Below, in pieces: positions 10,133-43,462 of a DNA stretch of 64,000 nucleotides. This DNA comes from Pseudomonas sp. LS44 (GTDB lineage: Bacteria; Pseudomonadota; Gammaproteobacteria; Pseudomonadales; Pseudomonadaceae): positions 2,666,001 to 2,730,000 of the forward strand of contig NZ_CP102830.1 of the NCBI RefSeq assembly GCF_024730785.1, given 5' to 3'. Below the pieces are notes generated by a model. It did not search any database, was not told the DNA's origin, and saw only the letters and a program-made list of their open reading frames with translations. Numbering within the stretch: the stretch's first letter is position 1; each line of letters starts with the position of its first letter. A program made the position numbers and the translations under genes.

Positions 10133-13100
10133 TCAAGCCAACTGGAAGTCCGCGACAGTCACATCGGCGGCGTTCACCCCCACCAGGCGGATGCTGTCTC
10201 CGCCGATGGTGATCAGCGTATCGACCACATCGGCGGCAATGCTCACGTTGCCGGCGGAGATCGCGGCGGCGAAGGTCGCGGCGGTGAAGCCATAGCTGGC
10301 GACATTGAGCAGGTCCTGACCACCGCCGGCGACGGCATCGAAGCCGGTGATCATGTCCTGACCGAAACCGGCACTGAAGTGGAAGATGTCGTTGCCGCTG
10401 TCGGCCACCATGATGTCGTTGCCGGCACCGCCGGTGACGGTATCGTTGCCGGCGCCACCATCGAGCATGTCGTCACCGTCGCCGCCGTCGAGCACGTCAT
10501 TGTTGGCTCCGCCGGCGAGCTCGTCGTTGCCGGCCCCGCCCACCAGCAGGTCATCGCCGGTGCCGCCATCCAGGGCGTCATCGCCGGCACTACCGAGCAG
10601 GGTATCGTTGCCCGTGCCGCCGTTCAGGCTGTCATGGCCCTCGCCGCCATCCAGGTTGTCGTTGCCGGCATCGCCATTGAGGGTATCGTCACCCAAACCA
10701 CCGAGCAGCGCGTCGTCACCGCCGCCGCCGAGCAGCGTGTCGTTGCCGGCCTGACCATTGAGGCTGTCGTTGCCGGTGCCGCCGTTGAGGGTGTCGTCAC
10801 CCGCCCCGCCAAGCATGTTGTTGGCCAACGTATTGCCGACGGCGAAGGTCGCGCCGCCGAGCTGCACGAAGTTCTCCAGGTTAGCGGCCAGGGTGTAGCT
10901 AGCGCTGGTCGAATACACGGTGTCGGTGCCAGCACCGGCCGCTTCGACCAACACGTCGGTGGCGACGTCGATGTAGTAGCTGTCATCGCCGGCGCCGCCG
11001 ACCAGGCGGTCATTACCCAAGCCACCGTCGAGCACATCGTTGCCGGCGCCACCGGTGAGGGTGTTGGCTAGGGCATTGCCGATGCCGGTGAAATTACCGC
11101 TGCCGACATACGTCAGATTCTCGACGTTAGCCGTCAAGGCGTAGAGGTCCAGGATGGTCTGCACCGTGTCGGTCCCTTCGCCTACCGCCTCGTTGACCAG
11201 ATCGCCGATATCGTCCACCACATAGCTGTCGTTACCGGCGCCACCAGTCATGGTGTCGGCTCCGGTACCGCCATTGAGGGTGTCGTTACCCGCACCGCCG
11301 AGCAGGGTATCGACACCGGCGCCACCGAGCAGCGTGTCGTTGCCGATGCCGCCGTCGAGCAGGTCGTCACCAGCCAGACCGTTGAGCACGTCATTGCCGC
11401 CATTACCGAAGGCGATGTCGTCACCGGCAGTCAGCGCCGGGCCGTTAGCCGCCGCAGTACCTTGGTAGAAATCGCCCACCACTGTGGTGGGTGCCGAGAT
11501 CAGGGTCTCCGCGTAGCCGCCATCGTCGATGTAGCTGACCAGCGCACGTAGTTGCAGGCCAACCTGCGCCTGGGCGGGGGTGAACTGCTCGGCCGTGGCG
11601 CCAGCGATATCGGTCCACAATCCTGCCACCAGCACCTGCCACTGGAAGGTGAATGTAAAGGCCGAAGTGGACGTGCCGTTAGGATCGAAGAAGTTCAGCG
11701 CCACGGTTAGTTGCTGACCCTCGGTCGGCTGCAGATCGTCGATATCCAGGCTGCCCACCGGGGCCTGATTGGTCAGCCACATGAGCTGATCGGCAAACTG
11801 CAACTGCTCGATATTCAGCAACCGGTCCGTACCATCGGAGAACACCGCGCCCTCGCCCACCGCATTGGTCGGGTCGACCGTCACATGCTGCACCGTCCAG
11901 CTGCCGTCAGCGTTGCGGAAAATGTCGTAGTTTTCGCGCAGATCCCAGTACACCGCGGTGTCGATGTCACCTTCCTGGCCGCCGTCGAGAATCTCGCGGA
12001 CGATCTTCAACTGACTCGGGTTGATCTCCCGATTGAGCATGCGCGCCTGCAGCTCGGTCATGTTCTCCACCGAGAACAGCTCGACACTCGGATCGTTGGG
12101 GTCGCGCACGCTGATACGCACGTTGAGCCAGGAGTCGCCGTCGATGATGTCGTCACCGCCGCGGCCCATGATGGTGTCGCTGCCGCCACCGCCGAGAATG
12201 ATGTTGCCGGCGTTGTAGACCAGCGCATCAGGATCGGCCAGTGCCTCGCCGCCGACCATGGCCTGCAGCCCGCTGATGCGGTCGACGCCGGCCTGGGTCA
12301 GCTCGTGGTTGAGCAGGGTCAGCAGCTCGGGCTCCAGTTCCGGATCGTTGCTGCGGTTGTCGCCGAGCAGCACGTCGTCGTGCTTCCAGCCGGACAGGCC
12401 TTCGACCTGATCGAAGCGGTCGCGCAGGATATCCGCCTCCACCGTGGTGAAGATTGGCGTATTGAGGTCACTGTAGGCGCCGAGCGGGTCGTTCTTGTGG
12501 ATCGCCCAGTCGAAGCCGAACATGCCCTCGTTGCGCTGGATACCCAGGCCCTGGACCATGATGTCGTCGCCGGTCTCGCCGTCGTAGTCGGTGTCGTTGC
12601 CGTTACCGTCTAGCACGTCATGACCAACGATCGGGCTGTTGAAGAACAACTCGGAGTTGTCGCCGGCCAGGGTATCGAAGCCCTCGCCGCCCTCCATCCA
12701 GTCATCGCCCTCATTGCCGAGCAGGAAGTCGACACCGCCGCCGCCACGAATGAAGTCGTCGCCGCGGCCGCCGAACACTTCCTTGCCATCCGGCCCGGCG
12801 ATGACGAAGTCGCTACCGTCGCCGGCGAAGATCAAGGTCAGGCCGTTACCAGCATGGATCACATCGTTGCCGCCATCGCCGTGAATCAGCGCCGTGGCGC
12901 CGATATCGGTACCGGCATCGGTAATGATGTCGTCGCCCTCGCCGCCGTGGATGATGTCGACGCCAAAACCACCTTCCAGGGTGTCGTCGCCGCCATCCCC
13001 CCACAGCGTGTCGTCGCCGTCGCCACCAATCAGGGTGTCGTTCTCCGCCGAGCCGCCGAGTACGGTGTGTTCGCCACCGCGGAACTGCAGCAGGTCGATA

Positions 13101-30927: not shown

Positions 30928-32259
30928 ATGCCTGAGCCTGTCGTCCGCCCTCAGCCGGTCACCCTGCGCGAAGCCCTGCGTTTCTGGTTGAAGCTCGGTT
31001 TCATCAGCTTCGGCGGTCCGGCCGGGCAGATCGCTCTGATGCACCGCGAGCTGGTCGAGCAGCGCCGCTGGATTTCCGAGAAACGCTTCCTGCACGCGCT
31101 GAACTTCTGCATGTTGCTGCCCGGCCCGGAAGCGCAGCAGCTCGCCACCTACCTCGGCTGGCTGCTGCATCGCAGCTGGGGCGGCGTGTTGGCCGGCGTG
31201 CTGTTCGTGCTGCCCTCGCTGTTCATCCTGATCGGCGTGTCCTGGCTGTACATCGCCTTCGGCCACCTGCCGCTGCTGGTCGGCCTGTTCTACGGCATCA
31301 AACCGGCGGTGACCGCGATCGTGCTGCAGGCGGCGCTACGCATCGGTGGGCGAGTGCTGAAAAACAGCTGGTTATGGGGCATTGCCGCCGCGGCCTTTGT
31401 CGCCATCTTCGCCCTCGACGTGCCCTTCCCGCTGATCGTGCTGGGTGCTGCGCTGCTCGGTTACCTGGGCGGGCGATTGGCGCCACAGCAATTCAGCCCG
31501 GGCGGCGGCCATGCAGCGGCCAATGCCGACTACGGCCCGGCGTTGATCGACGACGACACGCCGCCACCTGCGCACGCACGCTTTCGCTGGCCACGCCTGG
31601 CGCTTCTGCTACTGATCGGCGCCGTGCTGTGGTTGCTGCCGATGGGCCTGCTCACCGCGTTGTTCGGTTGGCAGGGCACGCTGACGCAAATGGCCTGGTT
31701 CTTCAGCAAGGCCGCGCTGCTCACCTTCGGTGGCGCCTACGCGGTGCTGCCCTACGTCTACCAGGGCGCGGTCGGCCACTACGGCTGGCTCACCCCGACG
31801 CAGATGATCGACGGCCTGGCTCTCGGCGAAACCACGCCGGGGCCGCTGATCATGGTGGTCGCCTTCGTCGCTTTCGTCGGTGCCTACCTGCAGCCGATGT
31901 TCGGCACCGACCAGGCCTTCCTCGCCGGCGCCGTGGCGGCCGCCCTGGTCACCTGGTTCACCTTCCTGCCGTCGTTCCTGTTCATCCTCGCCGGCGGCCC
32001 GCTGGTGGAGTCCACCCACGGCGAACTGCAGTTCACCGCCCCGCTCACCGCCATCACCGCCGCGGTGGTCGGGGTGATCGTCAACCTGGCGCTGTTCTTC
32101 GCCTACCACGTGCTCTGGCCGCAGGGCTTCGCCGGCAGCTTCGACTGGCCGTCGGCACTGATCGCCCTGGGCGCGGCACTGGCGTTGCTGCGCTTCAAGG
32201 TGGGGGTGGTGCCGGTGCTGATTGGCAGCGCGCTGGCGGGATTGGTGGTTCGGCTGTAG
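30928..32259 (+). CDS. chrA: Chromate transporter ChrA (long form)
   Basis: 443-residue inner-membrane protein of the CHR family, which exports chromate. It has two homologous halves: the first with FGGPAGQIALMHRELVEQRRW and LLPGPEAQQLATYLGWLLH, the second with FFSKAALLTFGGAYAVLPYV and GLALGETTPGPLIMVVAFVA. The halves are separated by a hydrophilic, proline-rich loop around residues 190-220. The GGPxGQ and PGP motifs are family hallmarks. The ATG at 30928 follows GAGG. No chrB regulator or other resistance gene is adjacent, so the physiological substrate is uncertain. Confidence 0.9.
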   Translation: MPEPVVRPQPVTLREALRFWLKLGFISFGGPAGQIALMHRELVEQRRWISEKRFLHALNFCMLLPGPEAQQLATYLGWLLHRSWGGVLAGVLFVLPSLFILIGVSWLYIAFGHLPLLVGLFYGIKPAVTAIVLQAALRIGGRVLKNSWLWGIAAAAFVAIFALDVPFPLIVLGAALLGYLGGRLAPQQFSPGGGHAAANADYGPALIDDDTPPPAHARFRWPRLALLLLIGAVLWLLPMGLLTALFGWQGTLTQMAWFFSKAALLTFGGAYAVLPYVYQGAVGHYGWLTPTQMIDGLALGETTPGPLIMVVAFVAFVGAYLQPMFGTDQAFLAGAVAAALVTWFTFLPSFLFILAGGPLVESTHGELQFTAPLTAITAAVVGVIVNLALFFAYHVLWPQGFAGSFDWPSALIALGAALALLRFKVGVVPVLIGSALAGLVVRL

Positions 32260-32519
32260 GACGGCCGTTGGAGGTCCACGGTGGGAATGGACAGGCTAGT
32301 GGCACATTGGTAGCGTCGGCTGGCGGTGCAGAATTTTACGACAATGGAGCTTAGTGCTGTTTAGGCCATATTTTTGGCTGGAATGTCGCATGTGTTACGA
32401 CTCCTACCAGCCAAGCAAAGGCTTATTAGGACGACAAGGAACGTTATGGGACATAGATGTCGCTGATAAAGGCGAAATCTATGTCGCATAACAATAGTTA
32501 GATCTCACTAGGAGAACCA

Positions 32520-33065
32520 ATGCGCGCCTTTACCATTTCTATGTTTATTTCTGCTGTAGCGTGTAATACCAGCCTTGCAAGCGATGCTGAAAATCAAGCT
32601 AAATCGTTCGCAACTATCTACGCATCTCTCTGCATGAAAAACCTTTCTAACTTAGAAGGACTTCGGGCAAAGTTGAAGGACATGCCAAAGCTCCCGCCAG
32701 AAAAATCCATTCAATTCTTATCAGGAAATCCGGGAGATGCATGGCCAGTCCCTGACAAAAACGGGACGTTCGTCCTTGCCCTTCCTAGCAACAAAAACAT
32801 TTGTATGGTTTATGCGCGGAGAGCCGATGCAACGAAAGCAGAAGAGATGTTTGTAGGATTAGTCGGAAATTCACCTGCCCCTCTGATTTCGCGGCTAGCA
32901 AAAGATGAGCGAGCACAAACAATTGCCAACGGCCCAACTCATACCATCTCTTACGAATGGTCAGTCCCAAACGCAGCAAGAACAATGTTGTTTACGCTCA
33001 CGACTGCCAGTTCCAACAATGCACAACTTCAAGCACTCGGTTCGGCGACAATCGTGGACAATTGA
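32520..33065 (+). CDS. Cassette-borne exported protein of unknown function
   Basis: 181-residue protein with a signal peptide (MRAFTISMFISAVACNTSLA, cleaved before SDAEN). The mature part has two cysteines and segments such as FATIYASLCMKNLSNLEGLR and GPTHTISYEWSVPNAARTML. I do not recognise the family with confidence; it looks like a small periplasmic protein. The AGGAG ribosome site just upstream of the ATG lies next to the cassette boundary, as usual for cassettes. Base composition is far richer in A and T than in neighbouring chromosomal genes, indicating transfer. The stop codon lies 1 base before attC1. Confidence 0.72.
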   Translation: MRAFTISMFISAVACNTSLASDAENQAKSFATIYASLCMKNLSNLEGLRAKLKDMPKLPPEKSIQFLSGNPGDAWPVPDKNGTFVLALPSNKNICMVYARRADATKAEEMFVGLVGNSPAPLISRLAKDERAQTIANGPTHTISYEWSVPNAARTMLFTLTTASSNNAQLQALGSATIVDN

Positions 33066-33066
33066 A

Positions 33067-33137
33067 ATCTAACAAACGGTTCAAGTCGTTCGCTTACTCG
33101 GGGCCGCGTTCCGCGCCCCCTTAACCAAACGTTAGGC
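33067..33137 (+). mobile_element. attC site 1 (canonical)
   Basis: 71-base recombination site. The outer boxes are ATCTAAC (33067-33073) and GTTAGGC (33131-33137), matching RYYYAAC and GTTRRRY. The inner boxes GGTTCAAG and CTTAACC pair perfectly except for one unpaired base, the extrahelical base that orients integrase on folded attC. Size and structure are those of a functional site. Confidence 0.85.
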
Positions 33138-33141
33138 AACC

Positions 33142-33819
33142 ATGCTGGAATTCATACTAAAGCAAAGAGCCCTGCTTGCAGTGCTATCAATAGCCATACT
33201 ATGGTCCGTATTATTTACAATATGGACTAAATGGATAAGAACAATTCCTCTAAATGAAGAAATCACACTGATCGCGGGAAGCACTATTGAAAAAGAAGTG
33301 CGCATCGTTATTCCAGAGCTCTACAGAGTTAACTTTCTTTTTGATCGCACGGGCGCCCCTGATAAAGACCTGAGATCTCTTGTTGGAAATTGGGGGGCTC
33401 TTAGAGGGAAAGTCATACCTTCTGGAGTAATTATCCCTATCCAGTGGTCACTGCACTCATCAAAAAATGGTGCAGTAGTTGCGACAGACACAATCAACTC
33501 TTTCGGCTCAGCAGGTTACACATCTAATAATTTCTATCGTCCGGCCGGACACTTCAAAGCCCCCACTGGCAGATATTTTTTCAAGGCTACAATACTGCGG
33601 GACGTACCGGAATTTAAGAACATTAAAACCAGGATCTCACTGGAGCCAATTCCAGGCTTCTCTTCCACATGGCAACTCACGCTGGCGTTTTGGGGCGACA
33701 TCGTTACAGTTTTACTGGTCTTACCTATAGCGTTAGTTCTTGGACTGCTATTACTCTGGCGTGCAAGCCGAGCATTCTATGCTAGGAATATCTCTACAAG
33801 CGGCGCCCCAAAAACGTGA
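33142..33819 (+). CDS. Cassette-borne membrane protein of unknown function
   Basis: 225-residue protein anchored at both ends. A hydrophobic helix spans residues 10-31 (LLAVLSIAILWSVLFTIWTK), a roughly 150-residue hydrophilic middle follows, and a second helix lies near residues 185-207 (IVTVLLVLPIALVLGLLLLW). The middle (IPLNEEITLIAGSTIEKEVR, YRPAGHFKAPTGRYFF) looks beta-rich and probably faces the periplasm. No family recognised. The start lies 4 bases after the attC1 core, as expected for the next cassette. Low GC and many A/T-ending codons set it apart from the host genes. Confidence 0.7.
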   Translation: MLEFILKQRALLAVLSIAILWSVLFTIWTKWIRTIPLNEEITLIAGSTIEKEVRIVIPELYRVNFLFDRTGAPDKDLRSLVGNWGALRGKVIPSGVIIPIQWSLHSSKNGAVVATDTINSFGSAGYTSNNFYRPAGHFKAPTGRYFFKATILRDVPEFKNIKTRISLEPIPGFSSTWQLTLAFWGDIVTVLLVLPIALVLGLLLLWRASRAFYARNISTSGAPKT

Positions 33820-33821
33820 AT

Positions 33822-33953
33822 CGGTTTAAGCTTCGAGAATTTAATCGAGCAACCGACTCGTCACATCGCTCCGGCTAGGTGGTAGGTACTTGTTTAGTCA
33901 CCTCGCCACAGGTTCGGGACCGCGTATCACGCCCCTCAACCTAAGCATTAGCG
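33822..33953 (+). mobile_element. Degenerate attC-like site 2
   Basis: Begins just after the stop of the second cassette gene. The left inner box CGGTTTAAG can pair with CTCAACC at 33935-33941 with one mismatch and one extra base. The right core reads ATTAGCG (33947-33953) instead of GTTRRRY. The central GGGACCGCGTATCACGCCCC resembles the same region of sites 1 and 3. At about 130 bases it is long, like the larger attC sites. It is probably decayed. Confidence 0.5.
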
Positions 33954-33967
33954 TAAATCAAGGAATC

Positions 33968-34552
33968 ATGATGGCTTTATTATGGGAAAACGGCGCGACT
34001 ACGAGCCAGAAAATATCTGGCCAATTATTGCTCCTATTAGCAATATCCACCCTGATTTATTTTATGTTTTTCAAAGACTTTCTTCCCAGCCAAGCGACAT
34101 CTATTGCCTCTTTATACTCCAGCGCAGGGGCAACCACGCTCACATTAATATGGATAGCACTCCAACTCCACAAAAATCACTGGAAGCCCAACAACCCAGA
34201 ATGGGGCAGAATGAGCACAATCAAAAAAGTAGCCACTATTATTATTTGCCCATTTATTTTATTTTTCATCTTCTGGATAAACTTAAACTATGCAATACCA
34301 CGCACCATTGCAATAACAACCGGCCATACCACAACAACTGAAGATGATTTATTAAAAACCATAAATCACACACGATACTCTTGCGACTTCAGGTTAAAAA
34401 GCGAAAAATTTAAGGGCTTTCTTTTTGAATTATGTGTAAGCGAAAGTTTTTTTAACAAACTTCCACAAGGCTTATTCAAAGCCAAACTGGAGATAGTGGA
34501 ATCCCCAGTAGGTATCGTTTTTAGAAGAATTGCGCAGTTAGAGTCACGTTAA
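33968..34552 (+). CDS. Cassette-borne multi-span membrane protein of unknown function
   Basis: 194-residue protein with three hydrophobic helices: residues 19-36 (LLLLLAISTLIYFMFFKD), 48-67 and 89-107 (VATIIICPFILFFIFWINL). A hydrophilic C-terminal domain of about 85 residues with two cysteines follows. No family recognised. ATG 33968 (immediately followed by a second ATG) has an AAGGA site; the frame is open upstream to 33890 but without one. Very low GC. The stop codon TAA is embedded in the first bases of attC-like site 3, a typical cassette feature. Confidence 0.68.
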   Translation: MMALLWENGATTSQKISGQLLLLLAISTLIYFMFFKDFLPSQATSIASLYSSAGATTLTLIWIALQLHKNHWKPNNPEWGRMSTIKKVATIIICPFILFFIFWINLNYAIPRTIAITTGHTTTTEDDLLKTINHTRYSCDFRLKSEKFKGFLFELCVSESFFNKLPQGLFKAKLEIVESPVGIVFRRIAQLESR

Positions 34553-34621
34553 CAATGCGCCCAAATCGTTCACTTCGCTTGCTGGGACCGCGTACCGGGG
34601 CCCTTAATTTAATCGTCAGTC
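34547..34621 (+). mobile_element. Degenerate attC-like site 3, end of cluster
   Basis: 75 bases aligning along their whole length with attC1: AACAATGCGCCCAAATCGTT against AACAAACGGTTCAAGTCGTT, then TGGGACCGCG against GGGGCCGCG, and CCCTTAAT against CCCTTAAC. The outer boxes have decayed (CGTTAAC and GTCAGTC), so it is probably inactive. GC-rich chromosome resumes immediately after. Confidence 0.55.
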
Positions 34622-34715: not shown

Positions 34716-35288
34716 ATGGATTTCCCCATACTGGTCGTCCCCGGCATCGGCAACTCGGGCCTTGAACATTGGCAGAGCCGTTGGCAAGCAGCGCATCCCG
34801 CCTGGCAGCGACTCGAAGTCGAGGATTGGGAGCGGGTCCGTTGTGCTGATTGGGTAGCGGCCCTCGAACGACAGATCACCGCGCTCGGCCCGCAGACGCT
34901 GCTGGTCGCCCACAGTCTGGGCTGTCTGGCGATTGCCCACTGGGCGGCGCGCTCCGACCTCGCCGCGCAGATTCGTGGCGCGTTGCTCGTCGCTGTGCCC
35001 GACCCACAGTCCGCAGCCTTTCCTGCCGTGGACGCCACGGGCTTTACCCCGTTGCCGCAGACGCGCTTGCCCTTCCCCGCGTTGATCGCCGCCAGTAGCG
35101 ATGACCCGTACGGCAGCCTCGCCCATGCCCGCCGCTGCGCCGAGGCGTGGGGCGCGCAGGTGTGCGAGATGGGCGCCAAGGGCCATCTGAACTCGCAAAG
35201 CGGCCTGAGCGACTGGCCCGGGGGCTTGCAGTTGCTGCGCCGCCTGGCCGATGAGCCGCACGCGACACTGGTGCCGGGACTAAACTGA
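34716..35288 (+). CDS. RBBP9/YdeN-family serine hydrolase
   Basis: 190-residue small alpha/beta hydrolase. It opens with PILVVPGIGNSGLEHWQSRW, the signature start of the RBBP9/YdeN (Ser_hydrolase) family. The nucleophile is Ser67 in LLVAHSLGCLA, the acid is Asp129 or Asp130 in ASSDDPYGS, and the base is His157 in KGHLN. No signal peptide, so cytoplasmic. The natural substrate is unknown for nearly all bacterial members. It is the first host gene after the cassette cluster, with an AGAAGG ribosome site. Confidence 0.88.
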   Translation: MDFPILVVPGIGNSGLEHWQSRWQAAHPAWQRLEVEDWERVRCADWVAALERQITALGPQTLLVAHSLGCLAIAHWAARSDLAAQIRGALLVAVPDPQSAAFPAVDATGFTPLPQTRLPFPALIAASSDDPYGSLAHARRCAEAWGAQVCEMGAKGHLNSQSGLSDWPGGLQLLRRLADEPHATLVPGLN

Positions 35289-43357: not shown

Positions 43358-43462
43358 GAGTCTCCCTGAATAACTCCGTTGACCAGCTTGAACCGCTTGT
43401 TATTTTGGCGGGCCTACCCTCGGGACATATTGGGGATTGAACTTGAGCCCATATATGAATTG

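Follow-up and report, generated by a model that had tools for sequence, protein, structure and literature searches.

An attI-like site heads an integrase-less cassette cluster beside chrA in Pseudomonas sp. LS44 and suggests satellite cassette capture

The cassette cluster beside chrA

The DNA analysed is a 64-kb window of the genome of Pseudomonas sp. LS44, which is a single contig of 4,461,138 bases. Within the window, a 2.1-kb block (32497-34621) has a GC content of about 38-49%, compared with about 65-70% for the genes on either side, a chrA-family transporter gene before it and a serine hydrolase gene after it. The initial annotation had described this low-GC block correctly, and had read it as three genes, each closed by an attC-like site, that were almost certainly assembled by integron recombination. 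The features are listed below in window coordinates.

30928..32259, plus strand: chrA-family transporter gene, left chromosomal flank, outside the array (PF02417, E 2.3e-74; TIGR00937)
32384..32388, plus strand: TGTCG repeat, 49 bp before the attI core, the commonest offset among intI-linked and orphan attI sites
32433..32501, plus strand: attI-like site without intI, crossover GTTAG at 32497-32501 (pattern match; collinear with a sister-species site)
32443..32492, plus strand: inverted repeat within the attI-like site, 21-nt arms at 32443-32463 and 32472-32492
32498..33131, plus strand: cassette 1, comprising the P1 gene and attC1, inserted into the attI-like site (left junction complementary to the R'' box of attC1)
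32520..33065, plus strand: P1, 181 aa, exported, NMCC_0638 (lipo)protein family (NF047650, E 1.8e-52)
33067..33137, plus strand: attC1, well-formed (R1, 66.7 bits, E 5.4e-16)
33142..33819, plus strand: P2, 225 aa, DUF5625 between two membrane helices (PF18539, E 1.6e-11)
33880..33953, plus strand: attC2, decayed, 3' half (about 33916-33953) alone recognisable (R1, 11.5 bits, E 2; repeat D1)
33968..34552, plus strand: P3, 194 aa, small membrane protein with a soluble C-terminal part, no described family
34547..34621, plus strand: attC3, diverged, R' box GTCAGTC (R1, 38.4 bits, E 5.1e-8)
34716..35288, plus strand: serine hydrolase gene, right chromosomal flank (PF06821, E 4.3e-54)

The attC sites were scored with a covariance model, R1, which was run across the whole 64-kb window with filters off; the 24 attC sites behind it all come from other members of the genus and none from the host genome. 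The model recognizes the first and third sites as attC but rejects the second as a whole site, which scores below an unrelated match in the window. That match (43368-43405, minus strand, 13.7 bits, E 0.47) is weak and probably due to chance. The 3' half of the second site scores 36 against attC 3' halves. No block shuffle among 2000 reaches this value (the highest scores 30), nor does any of 2509 further 100-nt stretches in the window when compared with 8 of the 24 halves (highest 27), and the site is therefore read as a decayed attC. P2 and P3 may consequently now move as one unit only, if at all, and with attC2 decayed and attC3 diverged the array looks old. The first and third sites are 79-85% identical in DNA sequence to attC sites of an array at 3.05 Mb in the same genome. 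At its left junction cassette 1 reads GTTAGAT (32497), which is complementary to ATCTAAC, the R'' of attC1 (33067), as in the junction of a cassette circle. Two model-supported attC sites and this junction support assembly by integron recombination.

The statement that the encoded proteins match no family holds for P3; P1 and P2 both have families, matching NF047650 at 177.4 bits (curated cut-off 28) and PF18539 at 45.1 bits (curated cut-off 26.9). P1 has many relatives (172 proteins at E ≤0.001, P1 included, of which the best 120 are listed) and an AlphaFold2 model with a pLDDT of 89; a PsbP/Mog1/DcrB-like fold is possible for it. Relatives of P3 are few, and an alternative upstream TTG start of its gene, at 33890, is also open. 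Speculation about defence or toxin functions finds no support for P1-P3 in Pfam, NCBIfam, PADLOC or PHROGs; the sole PADLOC match, of P3 to a 2TM effector model, is not significant (E 0.074). A DNA match to P1 (66%) was found in one of 119 genomes of the genus, G022, with no chrA match adjoining. None of P1-P3 was found in 16 chrA-flank stretches from relatives (one of them just 1.5 kb long).

The 5' edge of the cluster had been missed. Position 32497, given as its start, is the crossover of an attI-like site, GACAAGGAACGTTATG...ATAGTTAG (32433-32501), whose form and spacing are those of the attI beside the integrase gene of the host genome. A strict pattern, GACAAGGAANGTTATN{44,66}TAGTTAG, occurs twice in this genome, here and 68 bp from the start of the IntI gene. 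The sequence pattern and spacing identify 32433-32501 as an attI-like site of the Pseudomonas chromosomal integron type. When the two attI sites of the genome are simply aligned, the score does not go beyond shuffles, a result that counts for chance likeness and against the interpretation favoured below; the spaced pattern was tested on 398 genomes for that reason. The two sites also differ in type: that of the window has TGTCG repeats and that of the resident integron GGTGT repeats, so the resident IntI may not be cognate to the window site and may not have filled its array.

Integrase genes and attI-like sites elsewhere

In keeping with the initial annotation, tblastn of IntI over the 64 kb found no integrase (best E 0.39). 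The host genome has a single match to TIGR02249 above the cut-off, at 3,051,718-3,052,659 (489.5 bits, no stops), about 350 kb from the window array and divergent from its own attI region and cassette array. The usual definition of a CALIN, at least two attC sites with no integrase nearby, thus covers the locus, the attC sites at 33067-33137 and 34547-34621 being 1.4 kb apart, and to this extent the earlier interpretation is partly supported and the cluster itself is real. The description is incomplete, because an attI-like site of its own heads the cluster and an integrase gene lies about 350 kb off. The locus is not a complete integron: the approximately 170 bp from the chrA stop to the attI-like site hold no intI match.

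Over the whole host genome R1 finds nine sites at E ≤0.001: the complete integron at 3.05 Mb accounts for six and the window for two, and a lone one lies at 3,429,732-3,429,799; run on the fetched stretch of the 3.05-Mb array it finds seven. A cassette gene of the main integron (L009:11543-12208) matches the RiboL-PSP HEPN domain just above the cut-off (E 1.3e-6) and is a candidate nuclease or defence gene. The lone site marks a third cassette place (C1:3429732-3430699, locus L226), with one attC (56.1 bits), one gene of 277 aa, which has no Pfam or PADLOC match, and a degenerate attI-like stretch of the GGTGT type. This stretch scores 35 against the attI of the host genome, the maximum of 300 shuffles being 26. 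A neighbouring gene is, we presume, sulfite-reductase-like. By eye, the start of the L226 gene nearly equals the start of the first cassette at the orphan site L112.

The pattern scan of 398 genomes of the genus found 37 sites in 26 genomes, and a reversed-pattern control found none in the same 398. The named genome collection gave 71 stretches with the pattern, nearly all from Pseudomonas, Stutzerimonas, Atopomonas or MAGs filed near them. Once duplicates and three further stretches were removed, 80 distinct attI-like sites were left; the search was for an exact pattern, so these counts are lower bounds and biased to well-kept sites. Linkage to intI was called by tblastn with the IntI of the host genome. 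Thirty sites lie beside a full or nearly full intI, ten beside a partial one and two beside an intI cut by the record edge. No intI was detected at the other 38, 35 of which have at least 1 kb of upstream sequence (orphans, below) and three less. At least one R1 attC is present in the fetched sequence of 29 of the 35 orphans (18 of 19 from the 398-genome scan and 11 of 16 others). None was found at L140 (6 kb downstream searched), L143 (3.4 kb) and L195 (1 kb), or within the fewer than 500 bases searched at each of L144, L165 and L206.

Both intI-linked and orphan sites carry TGTCG repeats at offsets of about -49 and -71 relative to the core. At least two motif types, with TGTCG or GGTGT repeats, occur among the 80 sites, possibly one for each integrase lineage. 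By a simple motif rule the TGTCG type accounts for 28 of 35 orphans, compared with 15 of 30 sites beside a full intI. An inverted repeat is present in a single register in 16 orphan sites, that of the window included, with 88.8% of cells paired (shuffled mean 82.9). Six of its 14 pairs have changed on both sides, which 7 of 500 shuffles reach, and none of 500 reaches its covariation score; when the partner is slid by 1-3 columns, pairing drops to 18-52%. The aligned rows are related, so the covariation is support and not proof; by the look of these sequences the orphan sites appear to be maintained. At 10 of 18 orphans, window included, the junction of the first cassette is complementary to its own R'' over at least 3 nt; shuffles give 2.7 such sites on average and 10 at most (p 0.0002). 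Where a full or partial intI is present, 9 of 15 sites have the same complementarity.

In the 398-genome set, an IntI match at E 1e-60 or better is present in 13 of the 18 genomes that have an orphan attI, always elsewhere than the orphan, compared with 34 of the 380 others (Fisher p 9e-10, a statistic that ignores kinship). Five (G027, G012, G233, G240 and G392) have no match at thresholds from E 1e-40 to 1e-60; among these G027 is 98% complete, G240 is 77% complete and G392 has a partly deleted intI. The intI-linked array and the orphan array of genome G377 begin with the same cassette (311 bp, 94%), and the two arrays of G166 have one in common (470 bp, 85%). In the fetched stretches of the other eight of ten genomes compared there is no match above 110 bp between arrays. 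The host genome is among these eight, which counts against the interpretation favoured below, and G240 is hardly testable, only 44 bases following its intI-linked attI.

Two strains each have four attI-like sites with an intI match beside one only: Pseudomonas ullengensis UL070 (L158, L202, L209, L211) and Pseudomonas sp. F(2018) (L174, L199, L205, L208). On a viral contig of 14.7 kb (IMGVR_UViG_3300025309_000071, L227) an attI-like site at 10492-10559 is followed by an attC at 10921-11002 (53.6 bits), with no IntI match on the contig; this is a possible orphan attI on viral or proviral DNA.

Shared junctions and the origin of the cluster

One comparison is with a sister-species genome, G027, which is probably Pseudomonas insulae UL073. 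The two genomes have in common 1481 bp upstream of attI at 88% identity. The spacer of about 170 bp between chrA and attI aligns end to end with small gaps and no room for intI, so that inheritance is the simplest account of the intI-less junction. The three cassettes that follow it in G027 have nothing in common with P1-P3. The two attI sites are 74.6% identical, below the identity of the flanks, which counts against the satellite interpretation given below. An orphan attI also follows chrA in two MAGs (L127 and L185). Six groups of orphan sites share upstream flanks, five of them containing pairs without a common first cassette.

Group chrA: window and L048; no common first cassette
Group M: L111 and L118, flanks 89% identical over 1501 bp; no common first cassette
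Group M: L166 and L199, flanks 90% identical over 1500 bp, attI 95.5%; no common first cassette
Group Y: L114, L117 and L130; contains pairs without a common first cassette
Group Z: L134 and L208; no common first cassette
Group U: L174 and L197, with only 412 bases upstream for L197; no common first cassette
Group F: L115, L184 and L195; first cassette common

R1 attC sites are present at all sites of the differing pairs listed. Further group M comparisons, among L118, L140 and L143, combine attI sites that are 97-100% identical with different first stretches; L140 and L143 have no R1 attC and count for less. A precise change at the attI junction is the work of an integrase, and none is encoded there, so either integration and excision occurred in trans or arrays so made elsewhere were imported. 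Most simply, the cassettes at these shared junctions would have changed after intI was already absent, by means of an integrase acting in trans.

These comparisons suggest that satellite capture sites, filled by an integrase encoded elsewhere, recur in Pseudomonas-type bacteria. The locus beside chrA is probably (at roughly 70%) one such satellite platform of a split integron, with an attI but no integrase gene, whose cassettes would have been captured through an IntI encoded elsewhere. We infer that an integrase acted in trans, and likewise which integrase it was. The source of IntI would be a distant complete integron, today the one at 3.05 Mb, about 350 kb off. By recombination the enzyme would join a circular cassette, through its folded attC, to the attI at the G^TT point (32497); cassettes would thus enter beside chrA and could leave again.

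The strongest competitor, that a complete integron once stood behind chrA, lost its intI by deletion and left attI and array to decay without function, is unlikely as a full account, though loss of intI may well be how such sites begin. Many orphans retain the intI start codon and about five codons next to attI, where their likeness to intI-linked sites stops, and this suggests an origin through intI loss with a regulatory or binding stretch kept; the window site and L048 are without it. The decay of attC2 and attC3, the partial intI genes beside 10 of the 80 sites (with two more cut by the record edge), and the five orphan-bearing genomes without an IntI match, G027 among them, all fit a relic. 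Decay explains an origin, however, but fails to account for cassettes that have changed at shared junctions without intI, and it leaves the register-true covariation of the inverted repeat unexplained.

Less probable still is that whole arrays were swapped by homologous recombination through conserved flanks, all integrase work having been done in other genomes. At several loci the flanks of different genomes are about 85-96% identical, and loci of this kind could recombine within species. The swap nevertheless requires donor arrays behind intI-less attI sites with the same flanks, so that integration in trans must have occurred somewhere, and single cassettes are also common to different positions, as in some group M pairs; such swapping is compatible with a satellite platform. 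A plain CALIN, formed by off-target insertion at an arbitrary attG-type point and resembling attI by chance, is highly improbable and largely refuted by the pattern control and sister-species collinearity: IntI1 reportedly inserts at attG points (Loot et al. 2024, as cited in PMC12901181) and the plain attI alignment would allow it, but the site agrees with the pattern at all 21 fixed bases and in spacing, and it lies precisely where the cassettes are inserted.

The wider proposition, that many Pseudomonas chromosomes run a distributed integron in which one integrase gene serves several inherited intI-less attI docking sites beside unrelated host genes, seems to us evenly balanced. If it is true, cassettes are captured and exchanged at separate loci, a part of annotated CALINs are working capture platforms and not debris, and surveys that seek attI only beside intI miss capture sites, for which the 80 sites are a starting set.

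Relation to known systems

CALINs are common, and the origins proposed for them are relics, off-target insertion and integration in trans. The window locus resembles them in having attC sites and cassettes with no integrase nearby. It differs in that it begins with an attI-like site of its own, at a chromosomal place common to other species whose cassettes there are different; it would be a variant of the CALIN, and more than a plain one. An attI that heads a CALIN and is common to species whose cassettes differ points to integration in trans as the CALIN's origin. Pseudomonas stutzeri and P. alcaligenes have sedentary integrons in their chromosomes, reportedly described by Holmes in 2003. Three Stutzerimonas stutzeri records (L141, L162 and L175, one cut by the record edge) share the attI architecture, beside intI, whereas the window locus is without intI.

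CALINs are described as mobilisable in trans, and in Xanthomonas they recur at fixed chromosomal loci (PMC12444791, available passages). The Xanthomonas CALINs are like the window locus in occupying recurrent places away from intI; the same passages mention no attI for them. Delta-attI cassettes of mobile integrons carry attI-derived sites that recombine (PMC12901181, available passages), but these are part of mobile cassettes in resistance integrons, whereas the window attI has a fixed chromosomal place ahead of the array. The available passages of PMC3108266, PMC4405911 and PMC12901181 make no mention of orphan attI sites on chromosomes. No description of orphan attI across Pseudomonas chromosomes was found in the available passages of the open-licence PMC literature, a scope that makes this absence weak evidence.

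One precedent was found for a CALIN headed by attI. The Shewanella prophage M16-3 contains a CALIN and a complete integron, each headed by the same attI type (PMC9892861, available passages). As described there, M16-3 is a single case in a cryptic prophage, whereas the sites considered here are many chromosomal loci in Pseudomonas-type genomes, at which shared sites were compared.
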